Assembly (NCBI RefSeq): GCF_000689395.1
Contig: NZ_HG966617.1
Span: 3,074,721-3,138,720 of the forward strand
DNA from: Candidatus Phaeomarinobacter ectocarpi
GTDB taxonomy: Bacteria; Pseudomonadota; Alphaproteobacteria; CGMCC-115125
Length of the DNA stretch: 64,000 bases
Direction of reading: 5' to 3'
Made by a program: the position numbers and the translations under genes
The notes under the pieces: model-generated
Seen by the model: the letters and a program-made list of their open reading frames with translations, nothing else
Databases searched by the model: none
Told to the model about the DNA's origin: nothing
In this document: positions 12,395 through 28,101 of the stretch, one piece after another
How positions within the stretch are numbered: position 1 is the stretch's first letter
Layout of the letters: each line of letters opens with the position of its first letter

Positions 12395-13140
12395 GAGGCC
12401 GCTCCTACAAGGAGATCAGATTTGTTGCGCGTGCCTTTGGCCGTCTTTTCAACAAGACCGTCGCGCAGATGCACAACGTCGTCGCACAGCTCTGCCAGAT
12501 GCATGTCATGGGTAATCAGCACCAGTGTCGTATCGCGGCGCGAGTGCAGGTCAAACATCAGGTCAATAATCGCATCACCCGTCGTACCATCCAGATTACC
12601 GGTCGGCTCGTCCGCCAGCAAAATGGCCGGGTTGGGGGCCACGGCGCGGGCCAGAGCCACACGCTGCTGCTCACCACCGGACAGCTGGCCAGGGTAATGA
12701 TCCAGCCGGTGCGCCAGCCCAACAGCCTTCAATTCTTCCGCTGCCACATCAAAAGCGTCTGCCCGCCCGGCAAATTCCAACGGGATCGCGACATTTTCCA
12801 GGGCCGTCATGGTTGGAACCAGGTGGAAAGACTGGAACACAATCCCCACATTATCCCGGCGGAACAGGGCCAGTTGGTCTTCGTTCATCGTGGTTAGTTC
12901 ACGATTGGCCACCTTGATAGAGCCGGATGTGGGTTTTTCGAGCCCCGCCAGCACCATCAGGAGCGTGGATTTGCCGGATCCAGATGGTCCCACAAGGCCT
13001 GCAGCCTTGCCGGGTGATACATCCAGGCCGATACCGCGTAGAATATGCACCGGGCCCGCCGTGCTCGGCAGCGTCAGATGGACGTCACTAAGAGAGATGA
13101 TCGGATCAGATATGGACTTGCCGGCAGAAGCATCGGTCAC
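12391..13140 (-). CDS. ABC transporter ATP-binding protein (YbbA-like, LolD class)
   Basis: 249 residues: Walker A GPSGSGKST (about residue 51), signature LSGGEQQRVALARA, Walker B ILLADEPTGNLD and the H-loop LVLITHD. Class-3 MacB/LolD-type ATPases like this energise FtsX permeases. It heads the operon with the 870-residue permease and is divergent from the esterase gene, the arrangement seen for ybbA/ybbP/tesA in other bacteria. Confidence 0.93.
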   Translation of the reverse strand: MTDASAGKSISDPIISLSDVHLTLPSTAGPVHILRGIGLDVSPGKAAGLVGPSGSGKSTLLMVLAGLEKPTSGSIKVANRELTTMNEDQLALFRRDNVGIVFQSFHLVPTMTALENVAIPLEFAGRADAFDVAAEELKAVGLAHRLDHYPGQLSGGEQQRVALARAVAPNPAILLADEPTGNLDGTTGDAIIDLMFDLHSRRDTTLVLITHDMHLAELCDDVVHLRDGLVEKTAKGTRNKSDLLVGAAS

Positions 13141-13279
13141 GCGGATTTTCCAGACATTGTTTGGCGGCGCCCGTCAAAACCCCTTAACAGGCCGCGCATC
13201 CTTGGCATATGGCAGTTTGAGGCAGTTATACAACCGCCGGTCAGATAAGAGTCGTACGCGCCCTCTGGCAAGCTGGATC

Positions 13280-13945
13280 ATGGCGGCAGCGCTATTGGCG
13301 CTCCCTGGCATCCCGTATGCCGCCGCCCAGGAAGCTCAGGCGGCCCCTGCGGCAACCACCGATACAGCCGTTGAGTCCATTAAAGTCGTGGCGCTGGGCA
13401 CAAGCCTGACCGCCGGATATGGCCTGGAGCAAGGCCAGGGCTTTGTGCCTCAACTGCAGTCAGCCCTTGATAAAGCAGGCATCAGCGTCCTGATTGAAAA
13501 TGCCGGCGTCTCGGGAGATACGTCCGCCGGTGGTCTGGCGCGCCTCGACTGGTCTTTGAACGAGGATGTGGACGCTGTCATCGTGGAACTTGGCTCAAAC
13601 GACGCTCTGCGTGGCTTTGAACCCCAGCAGACCCGTGAGAACCTCACAGCCATCCTCGAAGCCCTCAAGGCCCGCGGTCTGCCTGTGCTGCTGACCGGCA
13701 TGCTGGCCCCGCCAAATCTGGGTGAGGAATATGGCGAGGAGTTCGCCTCGATCTATCCAGACCTTGCAGCGGAATACGACGTGTTGTTTTATCCCTTCTT
13801 CCTGGAAGGAGTGGCCGCCGAGGCATCGCTCAATCAGGCGGACGGCATTCATCCCAACCCGGATGGTGTGGCAGTGATTGTGGAGGCGATCACGCCCTAT
13901 GCGGTTCAGCTTGTAGAACATGCCCGCAAGGACAATTCTTCCTGA
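13280..13945 (+). CDS. tesA: TesA-like SGNH arylesterase / lysophospholipase, exported
   Basis: 221 residues from ATG 13280. The protein begins with a hydrophobic signal-like stretch (MAAALLALPGIPYAAAQ). A TTG at 13217 would add a basic n-region (RQLYNRRSDKSRTR) and may be the true start. SGNH blocks are visible: GTSLTAGYGL (block I, Ser nucleophile), GVSGDTSAGG (block II Gly), ELGSNDALRG (block III Asn) and DGIHPNPDG (block V Asp/His). It should be a periplasmic esterase acting with the divergent YbbA/YbbP transporter. Confidence 0.9.
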   Translation: MAAALLALPGIPYAAAQEAQAAPAATTDTAVESIKVVALGTSLTAGYGLEQGQGFVPQLQSALDKAGISVLIENAGVSGDTSAGGLARLDWSLNEDVDAVIVELGSNDALRGFEPQQTRENLTAILEALKARGLPVLLTGMLAPPNLGEEYGEEFASIYPDLAAEYDVLFYPFFLEGVAAEASLNQADGIHPNPDGVAVIVEAITPYAVQLVEHARKDNSS

Positions 13946-21077: not shown

Positions 21078-22000
21078 GAAATATCCTGAGCAGCGGCCCG
21101 CCGCGCTTTCGCCTCAACTGCCTCTCGGCGCGCGATATACAGCGTGGTCGCCACAATGATGACGGCGCCGGCAATGGTCAGCCAGTCCGGCACATCCCCA
21201 AAAATCAGGAAACCGGCAATCGCGGCAAACACCAGCCGTGAATAATCAAACGGCACAATGGCGGATGCGTCTCCCTCGCGGTAACCGCGGATGAAGCAGT
21301 TATGCGCCCCCGCTGCGAACACACCCATCAACACCAGCAACCCCATCTCGTTCCACGTTGGTGTGATCCACACAAAGGCCGCCGGAATGCCCGCCACCAC
21401 AGTGCCAACGACGCCCGTGTAAAACATCAATGTCACCGGTGCGTCCTTCACAACGATCTTTACAAAGATGGTTGCCATCGCGACGCACAGCGCACCAGCA
21501 AGCGCCACCAGTGCAGCGGGATCAATTTCGACCGTCGGCCGCAGCATCACCAGCACGCCGACAAACCCGATCAGCACTGCCCCAATGCGGCGCGGACCCG
21601 CAGGCTCTTTCAAAATGAAGTAAGCCAGTGGCACCACGAACAAGGCCTTGGTGAAGTTGTACGCCAGCGCATCCGCCAGCGGCAGATGAACCAAGGCATA
21701 GAACCCGCACATCATGGCGGTTGAGCCGACGACACCACGGGCAATCTGCAGCAGCGGGTAGTGTGTCTTGATCGACGCCATGCCACCGCGAATGAGGAAC
21801 GGCACAATCACCAGCAGCGCAATGAACATGCGAAAGAACGCCAGCTGCAAACTGTCCAGCCGATCACCCAGTGTCTTTGCCAGCACCGCCATCGCCGTAA
21901 AGCATGTGGCCGACAACAACAGCCATAAAGCGCCGCGCACATTGGGAGGCAATGTCACCCAATAGGCCGCCGCCCGCTCACGCTGGGACGCGACACTCAT
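21074..22000 (-). CDS. EamA/DMT family transporter, paralogue 1
   Basis: 308 residues with ten predicted helices in two EamA repeats (GALWLLLSATCFTAMAVLAKTLG and YTGVVGTVVAGIPAAFVW onward). It is similar along its length to the neighbouring gene, sharing NPR/PNxRGAxWLL near the N-terminus and AGAHNCFxRxYRxGxA. Its start overlaps the stop of paralogue 2 (ATGA). It is a metabolite exporter or importer of unknown substrate in the inner membrane. Confidence 0.9.
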   Translation of the reverse strand: MSVASQRERAAAYWVTLPPNVRGALWLLLSATCFTAMAVLAKTLGDRLDSLQLAFFRMFIALLVIVPFLIRGGMASIKTHYPLLQIARGVVGSTAMMCGFYALVHLPLADALAYNFTKALFVVPLAYFILKEPAGPRRIGAVLIGFVGVLVMLRPTVEIDPAALVALAGALCVAMATIFVKIVVKDAPVTLMFYTGVVGTVVAGIPAAFVWITPTWNEMGLLVLMGVFAAGAHNCFIRGYREGDASAIVPFDYSRLVFAAIAGFLIFGDVPDWLTIAGAVIIVATTLYIARREAVEAKARRAAAQDIS

Positions 22001-22962
22001 GCGGACTTGCTTTCGTCAGCAGCCAGCGCCGCCTTGGCGCGCGCCACCGCTGATTCACGCTGCGCAATATAGAAACTCGTGGCGGCAATGATGACTGCAC
22101 CCACAATCGTGTAGATGTCCGGCACCGTGCCAAAGAACAAAAACCCGGCAACGCCTGCGAACAGCAACCGGGTGTAATCAATCGGGGCCATCGCCGTGGC
22201 TTCACCCACCCGGTAAGCCCGCAGAAAACAGTTATGCGCACCGGCGCCAACAATGCCCATGCCGGCCAGCATTGCCCACTCATAAGGCGTGGGGTCGATC
22301 CAGTTCAGCACCATGGGTACGACAGTCATGGCGCAGCCAAAGACACCGGAGAACAGCATCATGGTGAGCGGCCCGTCCTTGTCGGACACGAGCTTGACCA
22401 TGATCGCCGCCCCCGCAATCAGCAGGGCGCCGAACAGCGCCACGAAGGCCGCCGGTTCAAAGTCGCCGGACGGCCGCAGCATGACCAGTACTCCCAGGAA
22501 GCCGATGATTACCGCCGTGATGCGTCGCCACCCGGGCACCTCGCCCAGAAAGATGATCGCCAAGGGCACCATGAACAGCGCCTGTGCAAACTGGATCGCC
22601 TGCGCATCTGCTAGTGGCAGTTTCACAAACGCATAGACCATGCAGATCATCGCGCCACCGCCGATAATGCCGCGCAGGGTCATCAGGCGTGGATGGTTGG
22701 GAATGAAGCCACCATCCTTGATGAGCCACGGCATGATGATGGCGGTTGCAAAGAACAGACGAAAGAATGCCACCTGCATGGGGTCGAGCCGCGTCCCCAG
22801 AAATTTCGTGAGAACCGCCATGACCGTGAACAGCGACATGGACATCAACAGCCACACCGCGCCGCGCGTGTTCGGCGCAAGCGTGAACCACCACGACGTC
22901 AGGCGGTCACGGCGCGCCGAATAGGCGGTTGGTGTGTCGTGATCAGTCACGCGAGAGGTCAT
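21997..22962 (-). CDS. EamA/DMT family transporter, paralogue 2
   Basis: About 321 residues with ten helices in two EamA repeats. The ATG at 22962 was chosen because residues upstream are Cys/Trp-rich and unlike the family; the frame stays open to 23112. Shared motifs with paralogue 1 include PNTRGAVWLLMS, LPLADAQAIQF and GAGAHNCFLRAYRVGEA. The two are translationally coupled tandem duplicates and could act as a pair. Confidence 0.88.
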   Translation of the reverse strand: MTSRVTDHDTPTAYSARRDRLTSWWFTLAPNTRGAVWLLMSMSLFTVMAVLTKFLGTRLDPMQVAFFRLFFATAIIMPWLIKDGGFIPNHPRLMTLRGIIGGGAMICMVYAFVKLPLADAQAIQFAQALFMVPLAIIFLGEVPGWRRITAVIIGFLGVLVMLRPSGDFEPAAFVALFGALLIAGAAIMVKLVSDKDGPLTMMLFSGVFGCAMTVVPMVLNWIDPTPYEWAMLAGMGIVGAGAHNCFLRAYRVGEATAMAPIDYTRLLFAGVAGFLFFGTVPDIYTIVGAVIIAATSFYIAQRESAVARAKAALAADESKSA

Positions 22963-23121
22963 CCTGACGGGAATACAGCAGCCCCAGCACCACTGTGGAT
23001 ATGCCCAACCTAGGTGCCAGCAGCGGCAGCTACAAGATGACTCGGCGTCATTTAATTTGAAACCTGTTGTGCGTGTTCGGGCATTGCCAGAAAAAGGCCA
23101 ATGGCCCCACACACTTAGAAC

Positions 23122-23937
23122 CTATGGCGCAGGAACCGCCTGATCCAGCGGATCAACTGTCGGAGACGGGGCAGATCGCAATCGGTCGCCCAGATCCACC
23201 ATCAACCGCTGACGGATGGCCCTCCCGATAACCGCGTACCCTTCCTCGTTGAAGGCAAGCCCGTCCCAGCGAAACAGGCTTTCATCCATCTGGCCATCAT
23301 CCGTCGCGATGAGCGACGCGGTATCAACGAAATGCACGCCGGCATTGGCGTCCGCCAGCGCCTTGAGCTGCGTATTGGCCTGCGCAAAGGCTAGCCAGCG
23401 CGCAGACCGCATGGGCGATGGCGTGATGGAAAGAATGTAAACCTGCGGCGCATCGCGTGGCCGCAACTCGGCTGGACGCAGCAACGCAACCAGCTCCGCC
23501 ATATCCGCTTCCACCTGATCCGGTGGCTTGCCGCCCACGTCAGCCAGATCATCCGCGCCCGCCGAAATGACAACGGCAATCGGCTCATAGGGTTGAATGA
23601 TACGCGGCGCATACGCCGTCACATGGGCAACATGCGCCCCGCCGAAGCCGCGCTTGATCACCGGCAGGGGAGCCAGCGTCTGCTCCAGCGTGTCCCACTG
23701 GCGAATGGTGCCGCCACCGGCAAACACGATCTGGTTTTTTTCAGGAGGGTTTGAAATATCCAGCCGTTCAAACTCGGCTATATCACCGGCCCAATAGACC
23801 GGGTCGCTGGAGGCCAGCAATACATAGACAAGAAACGCAAAGACGATAACCACCAGCCCAGCCACAATGGCGGCGGCGCGAAGTGCTGCGCGCCGCCACC
23901 CCCGTGGATCACGATCATCGACCCTGTTCAGTGACAC
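23122..23937 (-). CDS. SGNH/GDSL-fold protein, predicted inactive, membrane-anchored
   Basis: 271 residues. An N-terminal basic stretch and helix (AAIVAGLVVIVFAFLVYVLL, residues 22-41) suggest a signal anchor. The fold follows Lipase_GDSL_2: FAGGGTIRQWDTL where relatives have GxSxxxxW, VISAGADDLADV for block III, and DGLAFNEEGY for block V. The nucleophile Ser, the block III Asn and the catalytic His are replaced by Gly, Asp and Ala, so hydrolysis is unlikely. It abuts the MDR gene with no gap. The role is unknown, perhaps binding. Confidence 0.82.
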   Translation of the reverse strand: MSLNRVDDRDPRGWRRAALRAAAIVAGLVVIVFAFLVYVLLASSDPVYWAGDIAEFERLDISNPPEKNQIVFAGGGTIRQWDTLEQTLAPLPVIKRGFGGAHVAHVTAYAPRIIQPYEPIAVVISAGADDLADVGGKPPDQVEADMAELVALLRPAELRPRDAPQVYILSITPSPMRSARWLAFAQANTQLKALADANAGVHFVDTASLIATDDGQMDESLFRWDGLAFNEEGYAVIGRAIRQRLMVDLGDRLRSAPSPTVDPLDQAVPAP

Positions 23938-24939
23938 TTATTCAGTAACAAGAACAATCTTGCCCTTCACTTTGCGTGCCGCCATGTCGTTCAGCGCGGA
24001 GGCTGCATCCGACAGGGGATAGGTCTTGGACACCAGCGGCTTGATCTTGCCGGCTTTGAACCAGGCCATCAGCTCGGCCAGGTTTTCCTTGTTGCGTTCC
24101 GGTTCGCGCGCCGTGAAGGCACCCCAGAACACACCAACAATCTGGCAGCCTTTGAGCAGCGCAAGATTGAGCGGCACCTTGGGGATCGGGCCGGAGGCAA
24201 AACCGACAACCAGAAAGCGACCTTCCCAGTTGGTCGCGCGGATGGCTGGCTCTGAATAGTCGCCACCCACCGGGTCATAAACAACGTCCGCACCCTGACC
24301 ACCCGTCAGTTCCTTGATCTTTTCCGACAGCGCCTTTTGCTGTGCGCGATCAAGCTCACCGGTCGGATAGACAAACCCGTCATCCGCACCATGGTCTTTG
24401 GCGACCTGCACCTTGTCTTCGGTAGACGCAGCCGCAATCACGCGTGCGCCCATGGCTTTGCCAAGCTCAACGGCAGCAAGGCCAACACCACCAGCCGCAC
24501 CCAGCACCAGAAGCGTTTCGCCCGGCTGGATCTTTGCACGGTCCTTGAGAGCGTGATGGGACGTGCCGTAGGTCATCAGGAAGGCAGACGCGGATGTGAA
24601 ATCCATTTCGTCAGGAAACGGAGTGCAGCGCGCAGCTTCCAGAACGATCTCTTCAGCAAAACCACCCCAGCCGCATGAGCCGATGACCCGGTCACCTTCC
24701 TTGAGCGTGGTGACGCCCGGACCAACCTTGTCAACGATGCCGGCCACTTCACCGCCCGGTGAGAACGGCAGCGGCGGCTTGAACTGATATTTGTTTTCAA
24801 TGATCAGCACGTCAGGGAAATTGACGGCAGCAGATTTGACCGCGATGCGCACCTGGCCCTCGCCTGGCTCGGGCGACGCCACATCTTCCAGCACCAGCGT
24901 TTCCGGCGGCCCATACTCCTTACACAAAACAGCCTTCAT
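23938..24939 (-). CDS. NADPH:quinone oxidoreductase-like MDR protein
   Basis: 333 residues of zinc-independent medium-chain dehydrogenase type. The GroES-like part is MKAVLCKEYGPPETL..NFPDVLIIENKYQFKPPLPFSPGGEVAG; the Rossmann motif is LVLGAAGGVGLAAVELGKAMGA near residue 143. FWGAFTAREPE is typical of the QorA2/crotonyl reductase-like group. The start at 24939 is supported by GGGAGAG. It probably reduces quinones or enoyl compounds with NADPH. Confidence 0.9.
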   Translation of the reverse strand: MKAVLCKEYGPPETLVLEDVASPEPGEGQVRIAVKSAAVNFPDVLIIENKYQFKPPLPFSPGGEVAGIVDKVGPGVTTLKEGDRVIGSCGWGGFAEEIVLEAARCTPFPDEMDFTSASAFLMTYGTSHHALKDRAKIQPGETLLVLGAAGGVGLAAVELGKAMGARVIAAASTEDKVQVAKDHGADDGFVYPTGELDRAQQKALSEKIKELTGGQGADVVYDPVGGDYSEPAIRATNWEGRFLVVGFASGPIPKVPLNLALLKGCQIVGVFWGAFTAREPERNKENLAELMAWFKAGKIKPLVSKTYPLSDAASALNDMAARKVKGKIVLVTE

Positions 24940-25850: not shown

Positions 25851-26501
25851 ATGAACACAAACGTCACCACCACGCGCCCCAAAGGATTCTTTGCCATCGG
25901 CGCAGAACGCATTTCAAAACCTGGAAATCTGGGAAATCTGGTGCGTTCAGCCCATGCGTTCGGCGCCAGCTTCTTCTTCACGGTGGATGCCCATAAGCGC
26001 ATCAGATCCGGCCGGTCAGACACCTCCGACGCCAGCAGCAACATTCCCTATTACGGCTGGGACAGCGTCGATCAGATGCAAATGCCCGAAGGCTGCGACC
26101 TGGTAGGGATTGAGCTGATGGACGACGCGGTTGACCTGCCCAGCTTCTATCACCCCAGAAAGGCCGCCTACGTCCTGGGGCCTGAAGCAGGGTCCCTGTC
26201 GCCGGAAATGCGCGAGCAATGCACCAGCTTCATCCGCATCCCGACTGCCTTTTGCATCAATGTGGCCATGGCTGGCGCCATCGTCATGTATGACCGGGTC
26301 AAAACCCTGGGCAATTTCCCTGCCCGTCCCGTCTCATCAATGGGAATGCCCGAAGGCGCAGCGCCTCCGCTTGGCAGCTACGCTGAAAAACGCTCATCAC
26401 CGCGCGGACGCGGATCAACCGCAACATCGCCAAAGGGCGGGGGTGCTAGTCGGAGCCGCCTAGGGACAGAGCGCGCTGCACGAGTCCGAGTGCCCCGGTA
26501 A
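25851..26501 (+). CDS. TrmH/SpoU family RNA 2'-O-methyltransferase
   Basis: 216 residues. The knotted SPOUT core shows PGNLGNLVRSAHAFGASFFFTVD (motif 1), AAYVLGPEAGSLSPEM (motif 2) and IPTAFCINVAMAGAIVMYDR (motif 3, with Asn-Val-Ala replacing the usual Ser-Leu-Asn-Val). The last 45 residues are a Gly/Ser/Arg-rich tail that looks disordered and overlaps the convergent chrR-like gene by 56 bases. The RNA target cannot be told. Confidence 0.87.
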   Translation: MNTNVTTTRPKGFFAIGAERISKPGNLGNLVRSAHAFGASFFFTVDAHKRIRSGRSDTSDASSNIPYYGWDSVDQMQMPEGCDLVGIELMDDAVDLPSFYHPRKAAYVLGPEAGSLSPEMREQCTSFIRIPTAFCINVAMAGAIVMYDRVKTLGNFPARPVSSMGMPEGAAPPLGSYAEKRSSPRGRGSTATSPKGGGASRSRLGTERAARVRVPR

Positions 26502-27156
26502 GCTGCAGCGGGGCGTCGGTAATCGCCAGCGCAAAACAGGTGTCTCCGGCTTCTGCAATCGGGCGATGGGTAATTTCAGGCGAGGCGACAGACACTTCAC
26601 CCGGCCCAAAGCGGTCCCGGCCATCCGCAAATGCGCCCGTCAGCACCAAAGTCACCTCACTGCCCTTATGGGTATGCGTCGGCACGCCCTTGCCCTGCTC
26701 CAGCCGGTACAGCTTCACTTCGCCCGGCGCTGAGTCCGCACTGCCCTGGGGCGCCTCAAATCCAAGGTCCATGGCCTTGACGCCCGGTGTCACGAAGGAC
26801 CACTTGCCGCCACACGCCGCAATGCGGTCCTGAATGACCTGCGGCAGAGCGGAAAGCTCATCGTCAATTACTCGGCCCGCCTGCGCATCCGTTGGCTGCC
26901 GCTCGATCAAAGCCATCACCGCGTCAAACGCACCGTCGCGCATGGCCACAGGCTCTGCCTCATCCAGCAGCGCACCGCCGACCCGTGTCATCAGATCAAC
27001 AGTCTCCCGCGCGTCCGGGCACAAATCGAGATGGGCCGCCACCATAAGCGCTGTGGCTTCATCCAGAGAACCGGTTACGTAATCGAGCAGAATCTCTTCG
27101 CCAAACCGCCGGTCTGGAGCAGGAGCCTCTGTCTGTGTCGTCTCGATATTGGTCAT
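26446..27156 (-). CDS. chrR: ChrR-family cupin anti-sigma factor with altered zinc site
   Basis: 236 residues. The N-terminal anti-sigma domain (about 16-75) aligns with ChrR but keeps only two of the four zinc ligands: AHLDLCPDA has the His and first Cys, the last Cys is Ala, and the first His is Arg. The C-terminal cupin (about 130-225) keeps its metal set in PTHTHKGSE and ITHRP. It lies 3 bases after the sigma gene. ChrR normally holds RpoE inactive until singlet oxygen or organic peroxide appears. Confidence 0.88.
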   Translation of the reverse strand: MTNIETTQTEAPAPDRRFGEEILLDYVTGSLDEATALMVAAHLDLCPDARETVDLMTRVGGALLDEAEPVAMRDGAFDAVMALIERQPTDAQAGRVIDDELSALPQVIQDRIAACGGKWSFVTPGVKAMDLGFEAPQGSADSAPGEVKLYRLEQGKGVPTHTHKGSEVTLVLTGAFADGRDRFGPGEVSVASPEITHRPIAEAGDTCFALAITDAPLQLTGALGLVQRALSLGGSD

Positions 27157-27159
27157 CGT

Positions 27160-27768
27160 CTAAACAGTTCCCTCAAGTCCGCCTTTGAGTTTGCGGAAGG
27201 CAAGCCGCAGTCTCGATTTTACAGTTCCCAACGGAAGATCTTGATCTATGGCGATCTCGCTGTGCGACCACCCCTTGAAGAAGGCCAGCTTTATCAATTC
27301 AGCCTGCTCCTCTGGCAAGGTCTCAAGCGCCGCCCGCACTTTGATTTCTCGCTCGCCCGCCGCCACAGCCTCATCGGGCTGTTCGGCCTCTGAGGGCAAG
27401 AGCAGCGGATCATCCGGGTCATAATCAGGAAATCTGTCACGCCGCAGCACATCGATGCGCCGGTTGCGGGCAATCGTATAGAGCCACGTGGATACCGATG
27501 ATTGCTTGCGATCAAACTGCCCGGCCTTGCGCCAGAGCGTAATCATCACTTCCTGGGACAGCTCTTCTGCCAGTGGCTCGCCAGAGCCCAGTTTCATCAA
27601 ATAGCCTTTGAGGCGGGGCGCGAAATAGTCAAACAGGGTCGCAAAAGCCTGCTTGTCCTGCCGCGCCGCAACCGCCTCAATGCAGTCTGCCATGGCCTCA
27701 CGGTCATAGCCGCCGGTCTTCCCCGCGCCTGCCGATTTGGCACTTATCTGTGACGTCGCCACGTTCAC
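27160..27768 (-). CDS. rpoE: ECF sigma factor, RpoE/ChrR (ECF11) type
   Basis: About 202 residues from GTG 27768 (GATGAGGA upstream); ATG 27693 is an alternative start giving MADCIEAVAARQ. Region 2 is FATLFDYFAPRLKGYLMKLG..LSQEVMITLWRKAGQFD..STWLYTIARNRRIDVLRRD; region 4 is LETLPEEQAELIKLAFFKGWSHSEIAIDQDLPLGTVKSRLRLAFRKLK. With the adjacent ChrR-like gene it forms a sigma/anti-sigma pair, expected to control a photo-oxidative stress regulon. I found no clear ECF11 promoter upstream. Confidence 0.9.
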   Translation of the reverse strand: MNVATSQISAKSAGAGKTGGYDREAMADCIEAVAARQDKQAFATLFDYFAPRLKGYLMKLGSGEPLAEELSQEVMITLWRKAGQFDRKQSSVSTWLYTIARNRRIDVLRRDRFPDYDPDDPLLLPSEAEQPDEAVAAGEREIKVRAALETLPEEQAELIKLAFFKGWSHSEIAIDQDLPLGTVKSRLRLAFRKLKGGLEGTV

Positions 27769-28101
27769 CCGTCGTTTATCCTCATCAACCGCCTGCCCTG
27801 CATCGTGCCCGACACAGTCGGGGCCAGGACACCGGCACTTACTCAAACGTCACACAGAGCCACGAAAACGCCATGTTCCCTGCGCACAATTCATCATTCA
27901 ACGCCACTCTTGTAGCAGACGCAACGCCCCAATACTCGGCATACTCACTATCTTGGCCCGGCATACTTACCATCTTGCTACCGCAATCTCCCGATCCGTC
28001 ATCCGGGGTGTTGAGGGCAGGATTGTCGGGTGCTGGTGACATTGACCGCCGAACAGCGATAAGAAGGGGCAATTGATGGCAAATGCCCTTGGTTTACGAG
28101 C
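27769..28101. other. 333-base divergent gap with paired 19-base repeats
   Basis: The gap separates the sigma factor and IalB genes. It holds two direct 19-base repeats at 27937-27955 and 27959-27977. On the minus strand a 77-residue frame at 27839-28072 is open, but it lacks recognisable family features and is probably chance. The TAAGA at 28060-28064 with TGACAT 17 bases upstream is a poor match to an ECF11 promoter. Confidence 0.5.
27937..27977. repeat. Two direct 19-base repeats, 22-base period
   Basis: CGGCATACTCACTATCTTG and CGGCATACTTACCATCTTG match at 17 of 19 bases. Their 22-base spacing is about two helical turns, as for tandem binding sites on one DNA face. They lie upstream of both the IalB gene and the rpoE/chrR pair. 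Confidence 0.7.

Follow-up and report, generated by a model that had tools for sequence, protein, structure and literature searches.

The DNA analysed, referred to here as the window, is a stretch of 64,000 nucleotides from Candidatus Phaeomarinobacter ectocarpi, and all positions are given in its numbering. The gene under study lies at 23122–23937. These coordinates had been given correctly in a first-pass annotation, with no strand; the gene is on the minus strand. The same annotation had called it undisrupted, and the translated frame (23937..23122) is indeed open and encodes 271 aa. The GTG start follows immediately on the stop codon of the preceding gene. The genes and protein features used in the analysis are as follows.

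23938–24939, minus strand: upstream gene for a zinc-binding-dehydrogenase-type, NAD(P)H:quinone oxidoreductase-like protein (PF00107/PF08240)
23122–23937, minus strand: pseudo-SGNH gene, with a PF13472 match and 38 further orthologues
23815–23877, minus strand: predicted membrane helix, residues 21–41, hydropathy 2.97
23740–23808, minus strand: juxtamembrane segment, residues 44–66, with W49, F56, R58, D60 and S62-N-P-P65 invariant in 29/29 aligned clade members
23695–23724, minus strand: block I, FAGGGTIRQW (F72–W81), with Gly76 for the nucleophile Ser and Gly75 for the Ser before it
23638–23652, minus strand: block II, RGFGG (R96–G100), with Gly100 intact
23545–23559, minus strand: block III, GADDL (G127-A-D129-D130-L), with Asp129 for Asn
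23395–23400, minus strand: R180-W181 pair, particular to the clade
23266–23271, minus strand: R223-W224 pair, immediately preceding the block V Asp; of the two, W224 is the one specific to the clade and R223 is less so
23254–23265, minus strand: block V, DGLA (in D225-G-L-A228-F-N), with Asp225 kept and Ala228 for His
21997–23049, minus strand: downstream gene for an EamA-type transporter (PF00892), start assumed

The Pfam family Lipase_GDSL_2 (PF13472) matched the window protein at 2.2e-12 with 48.3 bits, thus passing the curated cut-off of 32.9; the alignment starts only at profile position 20. The same family was matched by 26/29 clade members (E<=0.01). An AlphaFold2 model of the window protein (mean pLDDT 90.1, pTM 0.82) consisted of a helix at residues 11–42 and an SGNH domain. 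When the model was compared with known structures, the 22 best entries were almost entirely SGNH hydrolases or design scaffolds derived from them (Z 22.0–24.5 over 188–204 residues), and the best Foldseek E-value was 7.4e-11, against a designed scaffold based on a GDSL-like protein. An SGNH alpha/beta/alpha fold is predicted for the window protein, in agreement with the earlier claim that the fold was retained. The predicted fold is that of the PAF-acetylhydrolase / sialate O-acetylesterase type of SGNH protein (1wab, 7pzg, 4iyj and 3p94; Z 22.4–24.5, 189–197 residues, 19–22% identity), a type also matched by sequence profile. The block II Gly and block V Asp are common to both, whereas the window protein is without the catalytic Ser, Asn and His and has, at its N-terminus, a membrane helix whose outer half is conserved. 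A PF13472 search of the own genome listed seven places without the pseudo-SGNH gene, so that this count is a lower bound and diverged members can be missed. The best of the seven is a second SGNH-type gene within the window (12809–13945, plus strand; GTSLTAGYG, GSNDA, DGIHPN), in which the catalytic residues are present.

Passages of PMC4757993 describe SGNH proteins as a family with four invariant residues. The three substitutions reported in the first-pass annotation, Ser to Gly76, Asn to Asp129 and His to Ala228, were all present in the translated frame. Each column was counted in 39 orthologues, all from whole-genome searches (29 in the alignment and 10 added, two of the latter cut by contig ends), and in 21 relatives picked by similarity, 20 with the full catalytic set and one (L016) with Ala in place of the nucleophile. 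Two very distant sequences with very long branches (L019 and L021), which keep all catalytic residues, were left out of the column count and of the 60-row tree. Three distant matches from the class were left out of trees and counts alike; one (L023) keeps the motifs, one (L025) aligns poorly with no His in its aligned block V, and one (L024) gave no alignment.

Asn at position 129 and His at position 228 were found in 0/39 orthologues, the window protein included, and in 21/21 relatives; Ser76 was found in 1/39 against 20/21, and Ser75 in 0/39 against 21/21. The changes that the first reading had proposed to look for in close relatives are therefore conserved there. The loss extends further: Tyr125, Lys172 and Trp237 (21/21 in relatives) and Phe88 (19/21) are, like Ser75, kept by none of the orthologues (n=39; n=38 at Trp237). 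Gly100 is present in 39/39 orthologues and 21/21 relatives and Asp225 in 38/39 and 21/21, and the framework columns G74, W81, F98, G99, G100, P119, G127, D130, R177 and N188 are invariant in the 39 orthologues. By these columns, what the 39 orthologues have lost is mostly the active-site set, and the fold is kept. Inside the clade, positions 76, 129 and 172 range over charged, small and polar residues; position 228 is Thr or Ser in 37/39 and Ala in the window protein. The sole orthologue with Ser76 (L057 6218–6988, plus strand; GGSD), from genome G243, is without the Asn and the His, and its Ser may be either a remnant or a secondary return. In one of the relatives, L016 (1168–1917, plus strand, in G055), Ala replaces the nucleophile (VGSADF) and Asn, Asp and His are intact; this is perhaps a separate, partial catalytic loss in another family.

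Within the own genus the gene was found in three of four genomes, and searches of the own genus, own family and own order all returned these same four genomes. The orthologues are 98% and 65–66% identical to the window protein; the former has the same residues at the catalytic positions and the latter has G/D/T. A sequencing error or private mutation was rejected, as the same residues occur in a second species of the genus. The own-group draft G002 (81% complete) gave no match to the gene, and its best oxidoreductase matches were only 46–47% identical. A second family, f10, which includes Parvibaculum and Tepidicaulis (Tepidicaulis marinus), carries the gene in 36/40 genomes and in 26/27 of the near-complete ones, which with the three of the own genus gives the total of 39. 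The locus may be missing from the drafts G002, G392 and G411. Of 385 genomes sampled from the class, 17 matched at E<=0.001, own genome included, with identities of 65–100% in the own genus, 44–50% in f10 and 24–33% in the remainder.

The 29-row alignment matched at least 24 loci among named-genome contigs (Parvibaculum, Tepidicaulis marinus, Parvibaculaceae, Rhodobiaceae, Hyphomicrobiales and Alphaproteobacteria), several of them on the same contigs as f10 genomes already counted. All 24 of these listed are without the Asn and the His, and the one with Ser76 is again the G243 contig. A single-sequence scan of the same named-genome contigs gave no match. In a sample of the phylum, 23/398 genomes matched. 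The reading covered the 14 best besides the own genome, down to but not including the eight weakest (E 4.5e-12 and weaker), and in all 14 the S, G, N, D and H are present. One locus (L139, G608:C9:551185-552544) has three consecutive matches, the last with an internal TGA, which may reflect tandem duplication of a catalytic SGNH gene and fragmentation of one copy. Plasmid records gave 48 matches, all at <60% identity and 44/48 from Agrobacterium. A phage origin was rejected, the scan of viral contigs having returned no relative.

The relationships were examined in maximum-likelihood trees. In the tree of 60 rows, from which the three catalytic columns had been removed, the 39 orthologues formed one branch with support of 100/99, recovered in 200/200 bootstrap trees. 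The rows nearest to this clade were catalytic-type paralogues of genomes G390 and G391 (93/81, not starred), in which S, G, N, D and H are intact and which coexist there with the pseudo-SGNH gene. The first tree, of 38 rows, was concordant, with 100/99 for the clade and 94/83 for its join with the catalytic-type paralogues. The catalytic-type paralogue is probably the sister of the pseudo-SGNH clade, judged from these trees, and long branches meet at that join. The own genus joined two f10 sequences at 85/80 in the 60-row tree, a placement left open by the 38-row tree. A position within f10 would also fit transfer between the two groups; vertical descent would be favoured because the gene order is common to the own genus and f10. 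As the origin of the clade we propose a duplication after which one copy lost its nucleophile (Ser), its oxyanion residue (Asn) and its base (His). The loss would most simply have happened once, before the Parvibaculum-type family separated from the own genus, and the copy would have been retained since.

Compared with the 98% identical orthologue, the window gene gave a dN/dS of 0.036 (NG86) and 0.049 (YN00); the neighbouring oxidoreductase of the same species pair gave 0.038 and 0.045. For the orthologue at 65% identity, dN/dS was 0.259 (NG86) and 0.099 (YN00) for the pseudo-SGNH gene and 0.066 (NG86) for the neighbour; by NG86 the pseudo-SGNH gene therefore evolves faster than its neighbour. 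Four f10 pairs gave 0.040, 0.085, 0.155 and 0.25 by NG86, and the two catalytic-type paralogues gave 0.119. The gene is under purifying selection between close species, and the constraint is moderate, not extreme. With this selection and with a loss that marks a 39-member branch, the earlier suggestion of a retained pseudo-enzyme is supported.

An anchoring helix at the N-terminus, as had been suggested, is predicted both by the hydrophobic stretch of residues 21–41 and by the model. It is preceded by six Lys/Arg and three Asp/Glu, and the 25 residues that follow it hold one Lys/Arg and six Asp/Glu. Because positive charge precedes the helix and negative charge follows it, an N-in/C-out topology with a periplasmic SGNH domain is likely. 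Identity between the two families is 75% in the outer half of the helix (residues 31–43), 69% in residues 44–66 and 43% in the core. Conservation in the protein peaks in the outer helix half and the juxtamembrane segment. This agrees better with a docking surface than with plain anchoring, since an anchor or a signal peptide could vary more freely. Among the residues that the clade keeps but that seldom occur in the first nine relatives are R58, S62, N63, R154, R180, W181 and W224 (29/29 each) and R223 (28/29). R180 and W181 were also present in 10/10 further orthologues; among relatives, R180 was found in 1/9 of the first set and 0/14 of a further set, and W181 in 2/9 and 1/14. R223 and W224 were likewise present in 10/10 further orthologues, with R223 in 0/9 and 4/14 relatives and W224 in 0/9 and 0/14. 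Both Arg/Trp pairs are adjacent in sequence to catalytic blocks, and for this reason they are placed, provisionally, at the cleft.

The likely start of the upstream oxidoreductase gene is at 24939, and its longest frame runs to 24987; compared with NCBIfam, the protein fell below the curated cut-offs of all models listed. In 19/19 loci examined, out of the 39 orthologues, this gene is the immediate upstream neighbour and has the same orientation. Directly downstream is a gene for a beta-lactamase-fold hydrolase (PF00144, one member scanned) in 11/19 loci; in 5/19 a PF01042 gene comes first and the hydrolase follows it, and in 3/19, those of the own genus only, the EamA transporter takes the downstream place. 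In the f10 genomes G386 and G385 the oxidoreductase and hydrolase genes adjoin each other and the pseudo-SGNH gene is missing. Since the other f10 genera and the own genus have the gene, this absence is most simply a loss, and because G386 is estimated to be 100% complete (G385 is a draft) the gene appears dispensable in one f10 genus. A ChrR-cupin type gene at 26446–27846 of the window (minus strand) was seen in the own genus only among the loci compared; the gene adjoining it we take to encode an ECF sigma factor.

We consider it likely that the window gene encodes a membrane-tethered SGNH pseudoenzyme whose retained role is binding or scaffolding. Without Ser, Asn and His, the SGNH mechanism of catalysis is very unlikely to operate. 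From residues and conservation we infer both the absence of activity and binding as the function. Binding or docking is pointed to because the fold, the Arg/Trp pairs and, even more strongly, the membrane and juxtamembrane part have been kept. The N-terminal helix, probably uncleaved, would tether the domain to the inner membrane on its periplasmic side; the emptied cleft, with R180-W181 and R223-W224 nearby, may hold a ligand, and/or the outer helix half and juxtamembrane segment may dock on a membrane partner. A more specific form of this reading is offered only tentatively: the emptied cleft could be a periplasmic receptor, with an Arg/Trp rim that binds an anionic ligand, acylated or glycosylated, and with the unusually conserved part in the outer membrane half relaying this to a membrane partner.

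Four other explanations were weighed. The one that survives best, though unlikely, is that the protein is a repurposed catalyst with a new chemistry independent of Ser and His, for example acid/base or metal-assisted catalysis through D130, D133 and D225 together with Arg. These three Asp are kept in 29/29, 28/29 and 28/29 clade members respectively, D133 is atypical of relatives, the Thr or Ser at position 228 in nearly all orthologues is no sign of random drift, and passages of PMC10211241 on pseudoenzymes warn of migrated or alternative activities. However, D130 and D225 are equally conserved in the catalytic relatives (21/21 each), as framework residues would be; positions 76, 129 and 172 vary within the clade, unlike those of a new active site, and the window protein itself has Ala228.

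It is decidedly unlikely that the protein is a subunit or regulator of the neighbouring oxidoreductase or of the downstream hydrolase, in spite of the constant upstream gene and of the hydrolase lying next to the pseudo-SGNH gene or one gene further on in most loci. The SGNH domain is predicted to lie outside the inner membrane, and in our judgement the oxidoreductase looks cytoplasmic. Moreover, EamA transporters replace the hydrolase in the own genus, and G386 and G385 retain the oxidoreductase and hydrolase genes as neighbours with no pseudo-SGNH gene.

That the protein is still an esterase, using a non-canonical Ser or His (S62, S170 or H105) or acting only in complex with an active partner, is highly improbable. 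An alternative Ser or His elsewhere in the fold was the objection foreseen in the first-pass annotation, and conservation divides the candidates. H105 is kept in 29/29 clade members and S170 in 27/29 of the first alignment and 36/39 orthologues, but they also occur in 4/9 and 8/9, respectively, of the relatives with normal residues, which speaks against both. S62 is kept in 29/29 and is particular to the clade, and to this extent remains as a candidate; its place, however, is a loop that precedes strand 1 and comes earlier in the chain than the nucleophile position. The loss of Asn129, Tyr125, Lys172 and Trp237 strips away still more of the usual surround of the active site. A gene in decay, in which a once-active enzyme is becoming a pseudogene, is scarcely credible: three catalytic residues are gone and one f10 genus is without the gene, but the frames of the 39 orthologues contain no internal stop (two are cut by contig ends), dN/dS is low between close species, and a single shared loss spans two families with many residues invariant.

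SGNH pseudoenzymes have been described in eukaryotes. In the OSK domain of insect Oskar, as described in passages of PMC2848206 and PMC7250577, the catalytic Ser and His of an SGNH domain are disrupted, a non-catalytic role is presumed and the closest relatives are bacterial GDSL-like sequences. Oskar is eukaryotic and its OSK domain is fused to a LOTUS domain, unlike the window protein. OSK (PF17182) was absent among the three Pfam families listed for the window protein at E<=1, and kinship with OSK was rejected, the weak Pfam matches (2/29 clade members against 3/16 relatives) being unspecific. Arabidopsis At1g54030, according to passages of PMC4757993, is a GDSL-family protein in which the block I Ser is replaced by Gly and which has no lipase activity and a new cellular role. 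This plant protein has one catalytic change, whereas in the bacterial clade five other columns are lost along with the three catalytic ones. The literature searched, which was mostly open-access, gave no report of the pseudo-SGNH clade, and 12 of the 16 inactivity passages of an SGNH superfamily review (PMC9487903), those covered here, name no such bacterial family. SGNH pseudoenzymes are thus already known in eukaryotes; the bacterial clade is apparently new and is well supported as a pseudoenzyme by its sequences.

Because profile searches place the proteins of this branch among the GDSL lipases, a transfer of GDSL-lipase function would probably be wrong for the whole of it. The clade would offer a clean case of an old catalytic loss with many descendants, in which exact columns separate catalysis from fold. 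As a bacterial counterpart to the eukaryotic SGNH pseudoenzymes, it would make the role of an emptied SGNH cleft addressable by gene removal in free-living bacteria. Two of the genomes also carry the catalytic-type paralogue, which could serve as a natural control. The two paralogues (L070 in G391 and L071 in G390) differ from the clade in having S, G, N, D and H intact (GSSSIRFW, GDNDF, DGLHLS), and they lie in a different genomic place, with no adjoining oxidoreductase in the stretches read, one of which ends soon after the gene. They are 35–37% identical to the pseudo-SGNH protein, and an N-terminal helix is also present in the paralogue model.
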